A stretch of DNA of 64,000 nucleotides from Persicobacter psychrovividus (GTDB lineage: Bacteria; Bacteroidota; Bacteroidia; Cytophagales; Cyclobacteriaceae), in contig NZ_AP025295.1 of the NCBI RefSeq assembly GCF_036492425.1, forward strand, positions 1 to 64,000. Reading direction: 5' to 3'. A program made the position numbers and the translations under genes. How positions within the stretch are numbered: position 1 is the stretch's first letter; each line of letters begins with the position of its first letter. The notes under the pieces are model-generated. The model worked only from the letters and a program-made list of their open reading frames with translations. It had not been told where the DNA came from and ran no database searches. Positions 10,844-16,569 of this stretch are shown one piece after another.

Positions 10844-12343
10844 TCAAATATTTTTCAAGGCAGATAACTGACCGATGATTTTGGCTTTGGCAATGGCTTT
10901 TTCTAATACTATAGGTTTGGAAGCGCGCTCTTTGCAGGTTTTCATGGAGCAACGTTCGCAGGTCTCATTCACTGTGTATATAGGGATGTTTTGGTCATCC
11001 CAAAAGTTGAATCGCTCGCGAAACACATCATTGAAGGTAAAACCTATACTGACACTTACTTCTGCATCCTCACCAACACTCGACGGCCTTACAAGTGATA
11101 TAACGAAATATTCTTCCCCTGAGTCTTGGTATTGAGAGCGCTGAACCATGAAATGAGCGTCGGGTGCCTGACCTTTATCCTTTAATTCCTGATATTCGTC
11201 GAAAATACGGATGGAGCTCCAACGTCGACAATAGTGCTCGCCATTTTCAATCGCATGTGCCGTATGATGCCGCGAGAAATGCAACTCCTTCGTCACAGAA
11301 TATTGCTTATTTTCGGGATTATGGTAAAAGCGCAGGTAGAAAAGGTTATTAATACCCCAATAGGTCGGAATCAAGGTGGTTAGCCGATGCATGAAAGTTT
11401 CCGAGGAATAGGTGTACTGATTCATCAGTTTGGTGAACGCCTCAGGGTTCCATCGTTCATTTTGGGCAAATGCCTCAAGGTCCTGCATAAGGCTTTCTCG
11501 ATTCATGATTAATGCCCCTGAGAAATAAGTTACTTTATGGTTGTTCAGTACCTGTTCAAAAGAGCCTGTTTCTATCGAAGAGTAGGTATATTCGCGTTCT
11601 TGAATATCCAGGAACCGATAGCCAAGTTCACGACCAATAACAAAGATTTTTTGGGACTCACTGAGGTCTGCATTGATATATAAGGTTGGTCGTTCACCGT
11701 CCACCATTACAGAGCGTAAGTTTTTCAATTCTTCAAAGTGGCTCAGTTTGTCATCATTGATCAGAATGCCATAATCTTTATGCAGGATGGTGGCCAACTG
11801 ATGAAACGAAACTTTATCAGTCACCTTGATTTGATGCTTATGCATAAATATTTCAACATCCCTTTCAATGGAATCGAAGTGATTCTCATGCATTTCAAGA
11901 TAGGAACGCAAAGCAGCGAGGTTAAAATCCTCCTCACTCATATTATATCGTCTCGAAATTTTAATCAGGGTGGAAATAAAGGCATTAATTTTTGTTGGCG
12001 CAGAGGCAATGATTTCTACCAGTTTATTCAGCTCCAGTCCAAGCATTTCCAATGGTAGGTTTTCCAGCACATTGGAGTTGAGCAAAGTGCCGATAGGCTC
12101 CATTTTTTTACTGAGTCTTAAACCCACCAGATCGTCATAGGAAACACCAAGACCAGAGGCTAAGTCCATCAGTTTTTTGGTCTTAGGATACTTTTTTCCT
12201 TTTTCGATTTCATTCAGGTAAGAAATGCTCAGTCCCGTTTGCTTGGCAAGTTCAGTAAGGGAAAGACCCAAATTGGTGCGGTATTCTCTGACCTTCAGGC
12301 CGAGAATTATTTTGATTCCTTCTTCACTAATATTCACGATCAT
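10844..12343 (-). CDS. RamB/ScfR-like XRE regulator with degenerate IrrE/M78 domain
   Basis: A 499-residue DNA-binding regulator. Residues about 14-70 are an XRE helix-turn-helix (LTELAKQTGLSISYLNEIEKG). The middle matches the ImmA/IrrE (M78) fold, but the zinc motif HExxH reads RELGY (238-242), so it should not be a protease. The C-terminal domain ends with four cysteines (CERCSMKTC), as in short-chain fatty acyl regulators ScfR and RamB. RamB of Corynebacterium controls aceA and aceB; here the glyoxylate genes lie 1.3 kb away, and a 20-bp motif upstream of this gene recurs before aceB. I infer an acyl-CoA or acetate-responsive regulator of the bypass that also controls itself and the cotranscribed S41 protease gene. 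Confidence 0.85.
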   Translation of the reverse strand: MIVNISEEGIKIILGLKVREYRTNLGLSLTELAKQTGLSISYLNEIEKGKKYPKTKKLMDLASGLGVSYDDLVGLRLSKKMEPIGTLLNSNVLENLPLEMLGLELNKLVEIIASAPTKINAFISTLIKISRRYNMSEEDFNLAALRSYLEMHENHFDSIERDVEIFMHKHQIKVTDKVSFHQLATILHKDYGILINDDKLSHFEELKNLRSVMVDGERPTLYINADLSESQKIFVIGRELGYRFLDIQEREYTYSSIETGSFEQVLNNHKVTYFSGALIMNRESLMQDLEAFAQNERWNPEAFTKLMNQYTYSSETFMHRLTTLIPTYWGINNLFYLRFYHNPENKQYSVTKELHFSRHHTAHAIENGEHYCRRWSSIRIFDEYQELKDKGQAPDAHFMVQRSQYQDSGEEYFVISLVRPSSVGEDAEVSVSIGFTFNDVFRERFNFWDDQNIPIYTVNETCERCSMKTCKERASKPIVLEKAIAKAKIIGQLSALKNI

Positions 12344-12410: not shown

Positions 12411-12430
12411 TTTGTGAAAATTCGCTGAAG
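12411..12430 (-). promoter_or_regulatory. Candidate operator, copy 1, upstream of the XRE regulator
   Basis: Read on the minus strand this is CTTCAGCGAATTTTCACAAA; 16 of 20 bases equal the stretch at 13531-13550 before aceB. It lies about 70 bases upstream of the regulator's start codon. An overlapping inverted repeat, TTCGCTGA (12421-12428) with TCAGCGAA (12440-12447), repeats the AGCGAA half. That this is a binding site is inference. Confidence 0.5.
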
Positions 12431-12571
12431 TGGAATCGCTCAGCGAAAGGAGGAAAGCCTTATGGGCTGTAGATTTGTTTATGTCAGATAATTATTCTTT
12501 TTACAATTTTTAGGGGTTGAGCACTCACAATCGCCCACAACTTTTGGTTATATCCATAGATTTAAAAATAT

Positions 12572-13399
12572 ATGGAACAAGCATACAGTTTTTCGACCAC
12601 TATAAAAAAGTTATTTCGACGCGGGCAAATTACTTACCTTGAAGGCATTCAGCTGGTGCGATTTGCCTCAAAACTGGGTTGGTTTAGCCGCAGAAAGAGC
12701 AGTAAAGTTATCTCGTTTCAGTATTTGGGTTTTAAGTTTTATGCTTTGAATTTACAAGAGGTAAAGCGTTTGTTTTATCGTATTTTCTCCTCAGAAGAGT
12801 TTTGGCTTCCCGTCAATTCTACGAACCCAATTATTGTGGATTTAGAAGCAGGAGAGGGCCTGGCAGTACTTTTTTATAAATGGCGTTTTCCTGCGGCACA
12901 GATTATCGCTTTTGAGTCTGATTTTAAATTGTATCAGTTGCTTCGTAGAAATATTGAAAGCAATCAGCTGACAGATATTACCTTATACTATGGTAAAGCC
13001 CTTGATTATGAGGGTTACACGGCAATCAATGGTGATGTTTCAAATCGGGTGGCGTGTTATAAATTAAGTGCCGTTTTGCCAGCAGATAAAATTGATGTGT
13101 TTCACCTACCTTTAAATCAGCAAAGTCAGATAGTGCTTCAGGAGCTGGATGCTGCAGACAAAATGAGCAGTGTCGAGTACCTTTTAATAGATTTTTCAAA
13201 ATATTCGTTTGATATGAATACCTATCGGAATTTTTTCGATACGGTATCAAGCCTGGGTTGGAAAGTTGTTCGGGAATCGGTGTTTGGCAGTTTGGCATTA
13301 GTCGAAGACCGAAATTTTTTCCTATACCCAATTTCAGTTTCCCTGCGACAACGGTTTTTCAAAAAGTGGTGGGGAAAGCCCCTTATAAAGCTCAAGTAA
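12572..13399 (+). CDS. FkbM-like SAM-dependent methyltransferase, degenerate motif I
   Basis: A 275-residue protein with the layout of FkbM-family methyltransferases: a helical N-terminus, then the SAM-binding segment IVDLEAGEGLAVLF (about residues 87-100), followed by the acidic strand end IIAFESDFKLYQLLRRNIESN. In typical members motif I reads DxGxxxG; here it is DLEAGEG, and the later Asp-rich catalytic part is weak (EYLLIDFSKYSFD). It may be a functional O-methyltransferase or a diverged relative. It is followed by a strong terminator and is a single gene. Confidence 0.65.
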   Translation: MEQAYSFSTTIKKLFRRGQITYLEGIQLVRFASKLGWFSRRKSSKVISFQYLGFKFYALNLQEVKRLFYRIFSSEEFWLPVNSTNPIIVDLEAGEGLAVLFYKWRFPAAQIIAFESDFKLYQLLRRNIESNQLTDITLYYGKALDYEGYTAINGDVSNRVACYKLSAVLPADKIDVFHLPLNQQSQIVLQELDAADKMSSVEYLLIDFSKYSFDMNTYRNFFDTVSSLGWKVVRESVFGSLALVEDRNFFLYPISVSLRQRFFKKWWGKPLIKLK

Positions 13400-13412
13400 A
13401 GTTTCCTTTTAT

Positions 13413-13438
13413 AGCCCTCTTCGGAGGGCTTTTTTTTG
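13413..13438 (+). terminator. Terminator with TTCG tetraloop
   Basis: AGCCCTC (13413-13419), TTCG loop, GAGGGCT (13424-13430), then an uninterrupted T run. It ends the methyltransferase transcript 14 bases after the stop codon and separates it from aceB. Confidence 0.93.
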
Positions 13439-13530
13439 TGCTAAATTCTGAGGATGGCCAAGTTTTATTTCGACGGTTAGTAGCGATTCGGACGTATGTA
13501 GGTTTTTAAGGATGAAAGCGTAAATAAATG

Positions 13531-13550
13531 TATTAGCGAATTTTCGCAAA
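13531..13550 (+). promoter_or_regulatory. Candidate operator, copy 2, upstream of aceB
   Basis: TATTAGCGAATTTTCGCAAA, 55 bases before the aceB ATG, matches the motif upstream of the neighbouring RamB-like gene at 16 of 20 positions. It contains the inverted repeat GCGAA-TT-TTCGC (13536-13547). The half AATTTTCGCAAA resembles the published Corynebacterium RamB site AAAGTTTGCAAA at 9 of 12 positions. Binding is inferred from position and similarity only. Confidence 0.5.
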
Positions 13551-13604
13551 TCAGTTTATTTTCTCTAACTTCCGTTATTGTTAATAAACACAAATACAAA
13601 ACTT

Positions 13605-15197
13605 ATGACTAACCATACCAAATCCGTTACTACCCTTTTGAAGAATCACCCCGCACAGGCCGCAATCCTAACCGAGGAAGCCCTACAGTTTTTGTCCGAA
13701 CTGCATCATCATTTTGAAGTGAAAAGACAACACCTATTAGAGCAGCGAAAAAATCATCAGCATAAAATTAGCCAAGGTGTTTTACCAAATTTTGACCCAA
13801 TAACAAAAGGTATCCGAATGGGTAATTGGCAGGTAGCGCCATTACCTGTTGATTTACTCGAACGGCGGGTTGAAATTACGGGGCCTGTTCATCGTAAAAT
13901 GGTGATTAATGCCTTGAACTCAGGTGCCGACGTATTTATGGCAGACTTTGAAGATTCCACCTCACCTACCTGGGAGAACATGATCGATGGGCAGGCTAAT
14001 CTTCGCGATGCGAATGCTCGGCAGGTAGATTTTATCGATCCTGTTTCTCAAAAATCTTATGAACTCAACGAAAAAACCGCCACCCTCTTCGTTCGGCCAC
14101 GAGGCTTGCATCTTGATGAGAAGCATTTGTTGATCAATGGTCAGAAAATCTCTGGGGCACTTTTTGACTTCGGCCTTTACTTTTTTCACAATCACCAACT
14201 GGTAAAAAACAGAGGAACGGGTCCTTATTTTTACCTTCCAAAATTGGAACATTATCTGGAGGCGCGCTGGTGGAATGAGGTTTTTGACTTTGCTCAGGAT
14301 TATATGGCAGTGCCAAGTGGAACCATCAAGGCTACGGTTCTGATCGAAACGATTACAGCCTCTTTTATGATGGATGAAATTCTTTTTGAGCTTCGTACGC
14401 ATAGCGCTGGTCTTAATTGCGGACGTTGGGATTATATTTTTTCCTATATCAAAAAACTGCAAGGACATGCTGATTTTTTAGTACCTGACCGAGAGCTGGT
14501 AGGTATGAATATGCCTTTCATGAAAGCTTATTCTGATTTGTTGATCAAGACCTGTCACAAGCGAAATGTGCACGCAATGGGCGGTATGGCTGCACAAATC
14601 CCCATTAAAAATGATGAACATGCTCATGGAAAGGCAATGGATAAAGTGCAAAAGGATAAGCTGCGAGAAGCCAAAGCTGGTCATGACGGGACCTGGGTGG
14701 CGCATCCTGGGCTAATTCCTGTAGCTCGGGAAGCATTTGATCAACACATGAAAAGAATGAACAACCTGCACATTGAGCGTGGAGATGTGAAAGTGAGTGA
14801 TGAGCACTTGCTGGAAGTGCCCAATGGCAAAATCACTTTTGAAGGAATGGTGAAAAATATCGATGTGGGGGTCCAATACCTTGCTGCCTGGCTTGCGGGT
14901 AATGGTTGTGTTCCGATTTACAATTTAATGGAAGATGCCGCTACCGCTGAAATCAGCCGTACCCAGCTTTGGCAATGGCTGCATCACCCCACTGCATTAT
15001 TATCTGACGGGCGGAAAGTGGAATGGGCGGTTTATGAACAGGCCACTTTAGAAGCGAAAGAAAGAATCCGTGAGATTCATGGGGCGGACTGTTTCGAAAA
15101 AGAAAATTTCGCTCTCGCAGCCAAACTATTTGACCAAATGACAAAGGCTGATCAGCTTGAAGATTTCCTCACTTCAGTGGCTTATGAATATTTGTAA
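13605..15197 (+). CDS. aceB: Malate synthase A
   Basis: Condenses glyoxylate with acetyl-CoA to malate, the second step of the glyoxylate bypass. I take the ATG at 13605 (530 residues, the usual size of malate synthase A); an in-frame TTG 27 bases upstream is less likely. Family signatures seen: GPVHRKMVINALNSGADVFMADFEDSTSPTW, the RPRGLHLDEKHL block, ATVLIETITASFMMDEIL and HAMGGMAAQIPIKND near the active site. It heads a two-gene operon with isocitrate lyase. A candidate operator lies just upstream, and gltA, which feeds the same cycle, is 16 kb away. Confidence 0.97.
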   Translation: MTNHTKSVTTLLKNHPAQAAILTEEALQFLSELHHHFEVKRQHLLEQRKNHQHKISQGVLPNFDPITKGIRMGNWQVAPLPVDLLERRVEITGPVHRKMVINALNSGADVFMADFEDSTSPTWENMIDGQANLRDANARQVDFIDPVSQKSYELNEKTATLFVRPRGLHLDEKHLLINGQKISGALFDFGLYFFHNHQLVKNRGTGPYFYLPKLEHYLEARWWNEVFDFAQDYMAVPSGTIKATVLIETITASFMMDEILFELRTHSAGLNCGRWDYIFSYIKKLQGHADFLVPDRELVGMNMPFMKAYSDLLIKTCHKRNVHAMGGMAAQIPIKNDEHAHGKAMDKVQKDKLREAKAGHDGTWVAHPGLIPVAREAFDQHMKRMNNLHIERGDVKVSDEHLLEVPNGKITFEGMVKNIDVGVQYLAAWLAGNGCVPIYNLMEDAATAEISRTQLWQWLHHPTALLSDGRKVEWAVYEQATLEAKERIREIHGADCFEKENFALAAKLFDQMTKADQLEDFLTSVAYEYL

Positions 15198-15216: not shown

Positions 15217-15248
15217 CCCGTGAGTCGCCTAAAATGGAAACTCACGGG
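15217..15248 (+). other. Stem-loop between aceB and aceA, no T run
   Basis: CCCGTGAGT (15217-15225) pairs perfectly with ACTCACGGG (15240-15248), but no T tract follows. It sits between the stop of aceB and the start of aceA, so it is more likely an mRNA-processing or stability element, or a weak attenuator adjusting aceA relative to aceB, than a full terminator. Confidence 0.6.
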
Positions 15249-15294: not shown

Positions 15295-16569
15295 ATGACA
15301 AAGCAAGAAAGAATCACCCGATTGATTAATGAATGGAAAACAAATTCACGTTGGAATGGCGTAAAAAGACCCTATTCAGCAGAAGAAGTGATTAACTTAC
15401 AAGGATCTATTGTACCTGAGAACAGCCTTGCGAAATGGGGGGCGGAAAAATTCTGGCAGAAATTGAATAGTCAGGATTTTGTCGCTGGATTGGGCGCTTT
15501 AACTGGTAATCAGGCAATTCAGGAAGTGGAAGCGGGTCTTGATGCTATTTATCTTTCGGGCTGGCAGGTGGCTGCTGATGCAAACCTGGCGGGGGAAATG
15601 TATCCCGATCAAAGTTTGTACCCTGTAAACTCTGTGCCGATGGTGGTAAAACGGATTAACAGTGCATTGCGTCGGGCAGATCAGATTCAGTTTATTCATG
15701 GTGGGGAAATTGATTATCAAGTGCCAATAATTGCCGATGCCGAGGCGGGTTTTGGAGGAAACTTGAATGCTTTTGAATTGATGAAATCCATGATTGACGC
15801 AGGGGCTTCGGGGGTGCATTTTGAAGATCAGTTGTCATCAGCAAAAAAATGTGGACACCTCGGTGGGAAAGTTTTGGTTCCTACTCAGGAAGCCATTAAT
15901 AAGTTGGTGGCTGCGCGTCTTGCCGCTGATGTTATGGGAACAGAAACCATCATTATTGCCAGAACAGATGCCGATGCAGCGAATTTATTAACTTCAGATA
16001 TTGATGCACGTGACCATGAATTTATTACTGGAGAGCGCAGTACAGAGGGCTTTTTCTATGTAAAAAATGGCTTGGAGCAAGGGATTGCCCGTGGGCTGGC
16101 TTATGCGCCTTATTGTGATTTGATTTGGCTGGAAACCTCGAAGCCCGACATCAAGCAGGCTAAAGCTTTTGCGGAGGCCATCCATGCGAAGTACCCTGGA
16201 AAAATGCTGGCCTATAATTGTAGCCCGTCTTTTAACTGGGCAGCAAACTTGACGCGCGCTGAAATGGCGACTTTTCGGGAACAGCTTGCGGACTTGGGTT
16301 ATAAATTTCAATTCATCACCCTGGCAGGCTTTCACGCCCTAAATACCTCTATGTTCGAACTTTCCAAAGCTTATCAACAGCGTGGGATGGCGGGCTATTC
16401 TGAATTGCAGGAAAAGGAATTCGCTTTACAAAGTGAAGAAGGCTTCCGCGCGGTGAAACATCAGTCGTTTGTAGGCACAACTTATTTTGATGCGGTTCAA
16501 AATACCGTAACGCAAGGCCTGGCTGTAACCACCGCCATGAATGGTTCCACAGAGCAGGAGCAATTTTAA
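15295..16569 (+). CDS. aceA: Isocitrate lyase
   Basis: Splits isocitrate into succinate and glyoxylate, the first committed step of the bypass. The 424-residue protein carries the catalytic signature [14 protein letters not shown] (184-197, nucleophile Cys186), the metal-binding [12 protein letters not shown] segment and the YNCSPSFNW substrate loop. At about 424 residues it matches the short bacterial class. It lies 97 bases after aceB with a stem-loop in between, so operon expression with possible differential regulation is likely. ATG start at 15295. Confidence 0.97.

Follow-up and report, generated by a model that had tools for sequence, protein, structure and literature searches.

Organization of the locus

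The window analysed here, 64,000 nucleotides of Persicobacter psychrovividus (positions 1 to 64,000 of contig NZ_AP025295.1), carries a gene of a RamB-like regulator on the minus strand and, divergent from it on the plus strand, aceB and aceA, with an FkbM-like ORF in between (Table 1). For this locus the shared motif, its conservation, its association with the regulator in trans, the covariation of recognition helix and operator, the promoter geometry and the fold of the regulator were computed. A Pfam search with the FkbM-like ORF at E 0.001 gave no family. The ORF splits the regulator from aceB in this genome, with one operator on either side of it; in 23 relatives the two genes are direct divergent neighbours. 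Two hairpins were seen in the plus-strand gaps. One, terminator-like and with a T run (GCCCTCTTCGGAGGGCTTTTTTTT, 13411-13441), directly follows the FkbM-like ORF and precedes the aceB operator; the other, at 15217-15248 between aceB and aceA (CCCGTGAGT at 15217-15225 and ACTCACGGG at 15240-15248), is a possible attenuator or processing site. Among the best 80 of at least 518 relatives, a contig named "uncultured Persicobacter sp." matches the regulator at 100% over residues 2-499 and aceB at 98.9%.

Table 1. Genes, operators and promoter elements of the regulator-aceBA region (window coordinates).
Feature	Position	Strand	Remarks
ScfR/IsaR-type (RamB-like) regulator	10844..12343	-	XRE helix-turn-helix, IrrE-like domain, C-terminal C-X2-C-X4-C
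Regulator-proximal operator AGCGAATTTTCACA	12413..12426	-	2 mismatches to AGCGAANNTTCGCT; presumed autoregulatory site
Two extra half-sites ATCGCT-C-AGCGAA beside the regulator-proximal operator	12435..12447	+	read from sequence alone
FkbM-like ORF	12572..13399	+	TIGR01444 sub-threshold, 23.1 vs 37.7 bits
aceB operator palindrome AGCGAATTTTCGCA	13535..13548	+	1 mismatch; place conserved in relatives
Third half-site TTCTCT	13561..13566	+	5/6 to TTCGCT; starts 26 bases past palindrome start; absent from the earlier note
-7 box, place as in relatives	13571..13578	+	here TCCGTTAT, poor match to TAnnTTTG
aceB, malate synthase A	13605..15197	+	TIGR01344, 772 bits
aceA, isocitrate lyase	15295..16569	+	NF011645, 730 bits

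The two sites and chance similarity

An earlier note on this DNA claimed that two 20-mers upstream of the regulator and of aceB, about 70 and 55 bases from their genes, agree at 16 of 20 positions and form part of an autoregulated glyoxylate switch. Read from the window sequence, minus 12411-12430 is CTTCAGCGAATTTTCACAAA and plus 13531-13550 is TATTAGCGAATTTTCGCAAA; the identity is 16/20 as claimed, and the distances hold, the palindromes within them lying 69 bases from the regulator ATG (end at 12343, minus strand) and 56 bases upstream of the aceB ATG (13605-13607). Taken alone, the pairwise match is weak and near chance: a best 20-mer match of at least 16/20 was reached in 30 of 400 shuffles of both upstream regions. 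Relative to the conserved core AGCGAANNTTCGCT, there is one mismatch at the aceB site, equalled by 0/500 shuffles, and there are two at the regulator site, equalled by 3/500. Since this core is palindromic, the contrast of minus and plus strand drawn previously is uninformative. The likeness of the motif to the Corynebacterium RamB site AAAGTTTGCAAA, also proposed there, is at chance level, with 9/12 matches at aceB and 8/12 at the regulator equalled by 26/200 and 85/200 shuffles. An operator of the published Corynebacterium consensus, AA/GAACTTTGCAAA, was likewise sought at the window sites in its several forms, and the best matches were no better than shuffled sequence (equalled by 40-128 of 200 shuffles). 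The 18-base core of the earlier note, searched in the own genome with two mismatches, gave 13 matches against 7 for the reversed control, which was considered too loose, and the palindrome was used instead.

Conservation of the palindrome in relatives

The conserved motif is the palindrome AGCGAA-NN-TTCGCT, with an A/T centre (AGCGAAwwTTCGCT) in the first set of relatives. This set comprised 117 genomes, the own genome included, of which 63 gave any match to the regulator at E 0.001; 43 (own included) with long matches at E <=1e-82 were taken as regulator-bearing, and the 20 with short matches alone, at E 1e-6 or weaker, were left out. The regulator and aceB are divergent neighbours in 23 of the 43, the window genome not being among them. 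The palindrome was found with at most one mismatch in 22 of these 23 ramB-aceB gaps, and for each of the 22 none of 200 shuffles matched it as well. The exception (G008) has the symmetric variant palindrome AGCGGAATTTCCGCT and a diverged malate synthase. On contig C1 of this genome (loci L081 and L114) a second regulator gene, matched in two pieces, lies beside a malate-synthase-like stretch and has a canonical operator, the variant operator belonging to the other copy.

The second, named set consisted of the best 80 of at least 518 confirmed relatives. Within these 80, the locus is divergent in 42, including Pontibacter, Hymenobacter, Marivirga, Tenacibaculum, Polaribacter and a Balneolia MAG, and the palindrome is present in all 42 at no more than one mismatch and exact in 36; it is spread from Cytophagales to Flavobacteriaceae and the Balneolia MAG. 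The Persicobacter locus is counted among the other 38 because of its extra ORF, and 13 of these 38 have a site at most 900 bases upstream of the regulator. In both sets combined, the aceB-promoter site is kept in 64 of 65 divergent loci, with at least two organisms present in both sets. As contrary evidence, the earlier note had named a lack of conservation of the motif in relatives sharing this gene order; this was checked, and the motif is kept (22/23 and 42/42).

The case rests on conservation and not on the pairwise match, which by itself would be compatible with a chance similarity of two AT-rich upstream regions, given that 30 of 400 shuffles reached it. That explanation is, however, refuted for the aceB site by its conservation in 64/65 divergent loci and by a third half-site at fixed spacing (see below), and for the two window sites it is very improbable, although the regulator-side site, the weaker of the two, could still be weak or idle.

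The palindrome follows the regulator

The exact A/T-centred palindrome occurs at 55 sites in the 117 genomes, compared with 7 for the reversed control, and in 37/43 genomes with the regulator versus 6/74 without it. By coordinates, 35 of the 55 sites lie at aceB or the regulator gene. Regulator-bearing genomes hold 49 of the exact sites, 34 of them at aceB or the regulator; of the remaining 15, 14 are intergenic and one lies within an ORF, before a glutamine-amidotransferase (glutamate-synthase-like) domain. Genomes without the regulator hold six: one is at aceB, and the other five fall within ORFs or between convergent genes. A terminator or a general palindrome was considered as well and was ruled out by this difference in placement.

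In a sample of 296 genomes of the phylum, the palindrome with a free centre was found in 46/56 genomes with the regulator (E <=1e-20) versus 48/240 without it. As many free-centre matches thus occur without the regulator, a family-stratified test was used, which gave a Mantel-Haenszel odds ratio of 8.3 (p 2e-7) on manually transcribed family tallies. Crude Fisher p values take no account of relatedness. Ten of the 56 regulator-bearing genomes have no exact palindrome.

The association also holds in trans. With a site defined as at most one mismatch within 400 bases of aceB, 7/9 aceB promoters carry it where the regulator gene is on another contig or far away, the misses being G010 and G060, in which both genes are present and the aceB site is absent. 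In genomes where no regulator was found the site is present at 1/6 aceB promoters, and this sole positive (G004) is a 330-contig draft. The regulator genes of the nine genomes have an upstream site in 4/9 cases, and 12 further regulator genes, 11 in genomes without an aceB match and one second copy in G043, in 5/12.

The regulator protein

In the window protein, Pfam HTH_3 and Peptidase_M78 (IrrE-like) are both above the gathering score, and among 29 members they were found at E <=1 in 29/29 and 28/29. The ScfRs family (PF09856) gives 13.3 bits against a cut-off of 24; 15/29 members match it at E <=1, the best at 8.6e-5. The score to the NCBIfam RamB equivalog NF038139, 47.9 bits over residues 14-328, is far under the cut-off of 700, so the name RamB expresses likeness only.

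Single-sequence and profile searches of PDB sequences at E <=1 gave helix-turn-helix and weak unrelated matches and no Mycobacterium tuberculosis PrpR (MtPrpR), and a fold search was therefore needed. With an AlphaFold model of the regulator (pLDDT 78, pTM 0.67), the five best Foldseek matches are chains of MtPrpR, described as PDB 6cyy, 6cz6 and 6d2s (PMC6765138), at E 2.5e-11 to 8.7e-9, with a TM-score by target of 0.68-0.70 and 14-15% identity over the structural alignment. Four cysteines, C372 and the C462-X2-C465-X4-C470 motif, are invariant in 29/29 aligned proteins; L017, a near-duplicate relative excluded from this alignment, has the C-X2-C-X4-C motif too. The same source gives Cys363 and a C-X2-C-X4-C motif as the [4Fe4S] ligands of MtPrpR (PMC6765138), and the four cysteines of the regulator correspond to these in pattern and are putative cluster ligands. 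By domains, modelled fold and cysteines, the protein is classed as an ScfR/IsaR-type regulator of a Bacteroidota branch, and it probably works like RamB.

Recognition helix and operator centre

The third helix of the predicted helix-turn-helix spans residues 40-47 in the AlphaFold model. Covariation with the operator was analysed for 128 distinct regulators, one row per distinct N-terminus, some of whose loci had been retrieved through the motif; regulator-bearing genomes of family f26 without an exact palindrome (G172, G183, G198, G329 and G399) were left out, and K40 regulators without a site could be missed. A site lies at most 600 bases upstream in 92/128 regulators and is absent in 36, so not every regulator would be autoregulated through this motif. 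All 14 K40 regulators have an operator with a non-A/T centre (13 CG, 1 AG); the other 78 site-bearing regulators have an A/T centre in 74 cases and a non-A/T one in 4. Residue 40 of the recognition helix therefore covaries with the central bases of the operator, although 13 of the 14 K40 regulators belong to Tenacibaculum, to Polaribacter or to the families f25 and f26 (probably Flavobacteriales), which means few independent events. Outside that group are G015 (K40, AG centre) and one copy in G113 (P40, CG centre). The canonical site is absent in 11 of the 13 regulators with YINE in place of YLNE. Regulators of Emticicia, Dyadobacter, Runella and Rhabdobacter (L158, L171, L183, L199, L214, L216) have YINE in the recognition helix, and no canonical operator was found upstream of them; another site may be read by these regulators.

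These data bear on the question of which protein reads the palindrome. It might be the operator of another transcription factor that is found together with the ramB-aceB neighbourhood: the binding of the regulator is deduced from sequence, 36/128 regulators have no upstream site, and some sites precede genes less closely tied to this metabolism, among them dihydroxy-acid dehydratase and glutamate dehydrogenase. An unrelated factor is nevertheless improbable, as the aceB site stays with the regulator located elsewhere (7/9) and is mostly gone without it (1/6), and as a residue of the regulator's own recognition helix covaries with the operator centre. It is proposed instead, with a probability of about 0.8, that AGCGAANNTTCGCT is the operator of the adjoining ScfR/IsaR-type regulator, which would form with it a switch of the glyoxylate shunt that responds to acyl-CoA and is autoregulated. 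The shared motif is probably bound by the regulator and would belong to a switch serving growth on acetate and similar carbon sources. The regulator's own gene and aceB share the operator, the regulator-side site of the window being the weaker one, and the regulator probably controls both itself and aceBA.

Promoter geometry at aceB and a possible mechanism

A half-site with at least 5/6 identity to TTCGCT starts at offset 25-27 from the palindrome in 49/59 loci, compared with a mean of 0.8 and a maximum of 5 in 1000 shuffles. The 59 loci remained from 61 after removal of the near-duplicates L161 and L174; they were chosen by core match, so that invariance of the core columns in this alignment is by selection. 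The third half-site is absent at this place in the Tenacibaculum and Polaribacter rows. A TAnnTTT sequence starts at offset 36 in 32/59 loci and at 35 in 6, with none in range in 14. In Flavobacterium psychrophilum the -7 box is placed at -12 to -5 (PMC9723704). Given this position and the common spacing, the palindrome would be centred at -41.5, and the third half-site would span about -22 to -17. In relatives, the aceB palindrome extends into the TTG of the -33 element, and the third half-site lies within the -33/-7 spacer. In the window the third half-site is present (TTCTCT) and the -7 box is poor. A palindrome centred at about -41.5 is in a class II activator position.

This geometry seems to fit a model from another phylum. 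RamB of Paracoccus denitrificans is described as an activator of the divergent ms-icl operon, for which the authors proposed a blocking tetramer and an activating dimer (PMC10370305). The regulator would bind at two promoters, its own (autoregulation) and that of aceBA, as a dimer on the palindrome and as a tetramer also on the third half-site. With little acyl-CoA, the tetramer would hold both the palindrome and the third half-site, and RNA polymerase would be blocked. Acyl-CoA bound beside the [4Fe4S] cluster would loosen the tetramer and free the spacer, and the dimer left at -41.5 might then allow or enhance transcription of the glyoxylate-shunt genes. In this model the binding, the ligand, the cluster, the oligomer switch and the sign of control are what we infer.

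Alternatively, the regulator would act at aceB in one sense only, activating or repressing, with no tetramer-dimer switch, and the odds of this come close to even. Each sign has a precedent, as the Paracoccus RamB is required for expression (PMC10370305) and the Corynebacterium RamB represses aceA and aceB (PMC4448153); in the promoters themselves the -41.5 position fits activation and the half-site in the spacer fits repression. The conserved pairing of both positions, on the other hand, suggests a switch.

Wider predicted regulon

With up to one mismatch allowed, a search of the own genome gave 15 places for the palindrome, compared with 6 for the reversed control. Eight of the 15 were inspected, of which seven are inside ORFs and one precedes focA; the aceB site was viewed as well, which makes nine of the 15 covered. 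The focA site (G000:C1:1147117; L085 1501-1514) is the sole exact palindrome found in this genome, and lies 249 bases before the ORF of a formate transporter followed by a PFL-like gene (focA-pflB), with another gene divergent on its far side. Among the inspected places, no convincing target was seen beyond aceB, the regulator and focA. Upstream of pckA of the own genome no site was found, the best match in about 1.5 kb having four mismatches, so the gluconeogenic targets of the relatives are not claimable for this Persicobacter. Four copies of AGCTAACTTTCGCT in either orientation (G000:C3:208040, 222717 and 298192, and C11:22812) suggest a repeated element in this genome.

In relatives with the regulator, an exact site precedes PEP carboxykinase in G060 (by Pfam) and in G099 and G114 (by ORF likeness), and fructose-bisphosphatase in G060, there with an aspartokinase-like gene on the opposite side. 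Further exact sites lie before aceA alone (G094), GAPDH (G012, with a second gene on the opposite side), glutamate dehydrogenase (G088), dihydroxy-acid dehydratase (G113 by Pfam, G098 by likeness) and a HAD-hydrolase/2-hydroxyacid-dehydrogenase fusion (G109). Seven multi-site genomes and G153 were also viewed, where the placement is less clear-cut and 9/35 sites were flagged inside an ORF, some merely through an upstream-extended ORF; two more sites of the multi-site genomes, adjoining regulators, are outside these 35. In G290 sites were found at acyl-CoA dehydrogenases and an enoyl-CoA hydratase, with an ETF-alpha gene 825 bases from a site and one ORF in between; in G153 at a hydroxyacyl-CoA dehydrogenase; in G138, and by likeness in G226 and G237, at aconitase; and in G295 at an acyl-CoA dehydrogenase and a B12-binding/MeaB protein. 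The multi-site list also includes a helicase, outer-membrane-like proteins and a nitronate-monooxygenase-like gene, with no obvious link.

A broader reading can be offered tentatively, at somewhat less than even odds. The regulator may be an ancient, phylum-wide acyl-CoA regulator of Bacteroidota, tying the glyoxylate shunt to gluconeogenesis (pckA, fbp) and, in some lineages, to beta-oxidation, aconitase and B12-binding/MeaB-type genes; on a tripartite operator embedded in the promoter, the same protein would block or activate sigma-A promoters according to the occupancy of the third half-site in the -33/-7 spacer. The precise operator, the promoter geometry and the predicted targets make the regulator testable in genera like Hymenobacter, Pontibacter and Marivirga, and the helix covariation predicts which residue reads which bases.

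Comparison with known systems

Literature searches of partial coverage, in which an earlier mention is possible, found no RamB-like operator or regulon in Bacteroidota. RamB outside Actinobacteria is already known, from Paracoccus. Of the "autoregulated glyoxylate switch in a Bacteroidota" in the earlier note, the shared, conserved, operator-like palindrome and the probable control of the regulator over itself and aceBA are supported at the level of sequence; the framing as "outside Actinobacteria" was too narrow, and the protein is RamB by likeness only.

The class 1 RamB of Corynebacterium glutamicum mostly represses, through the site AA/GAACTTTGCAAA, and its targets aceA, aceB and its own gene are alike to those predicted here (PMC4448153). 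It differs in that the window sites resemble this consensus no better than shuffles and in the equivalog score of the protein (47.9 vs 700). M. tuberculosis PrpR, of the IsaR clade, is the best fold match and is alike in the C-X2-C-X4-C motif with one upstream cysteine; it differs in the low identity (14-15%) and in regulating the methylcitrate cycle (PMC6765138). The class 2 ScfR RamB of P. denitrificans belongs to another phylum, and its preferred ligand is reported to be an intermediate of the ethylmalonyl-CoA pathway (PMC10370305). Compared by description, its two nearly identical boxes with an 18-bp spacer differ from the inverted pair 2 bases apart with a third half-site found here (PMC10370305). 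It is like the present locus in the ScfR family, in a regulator gene transcribed away from those of malate synthase and isocitrate lyase, and in repeated boxes upstream of ms; in Paracoccus, CoA esters shift the RamB tetramer to a dimer (PMC10370305), as is proposed for the regulator of Persicobacter.
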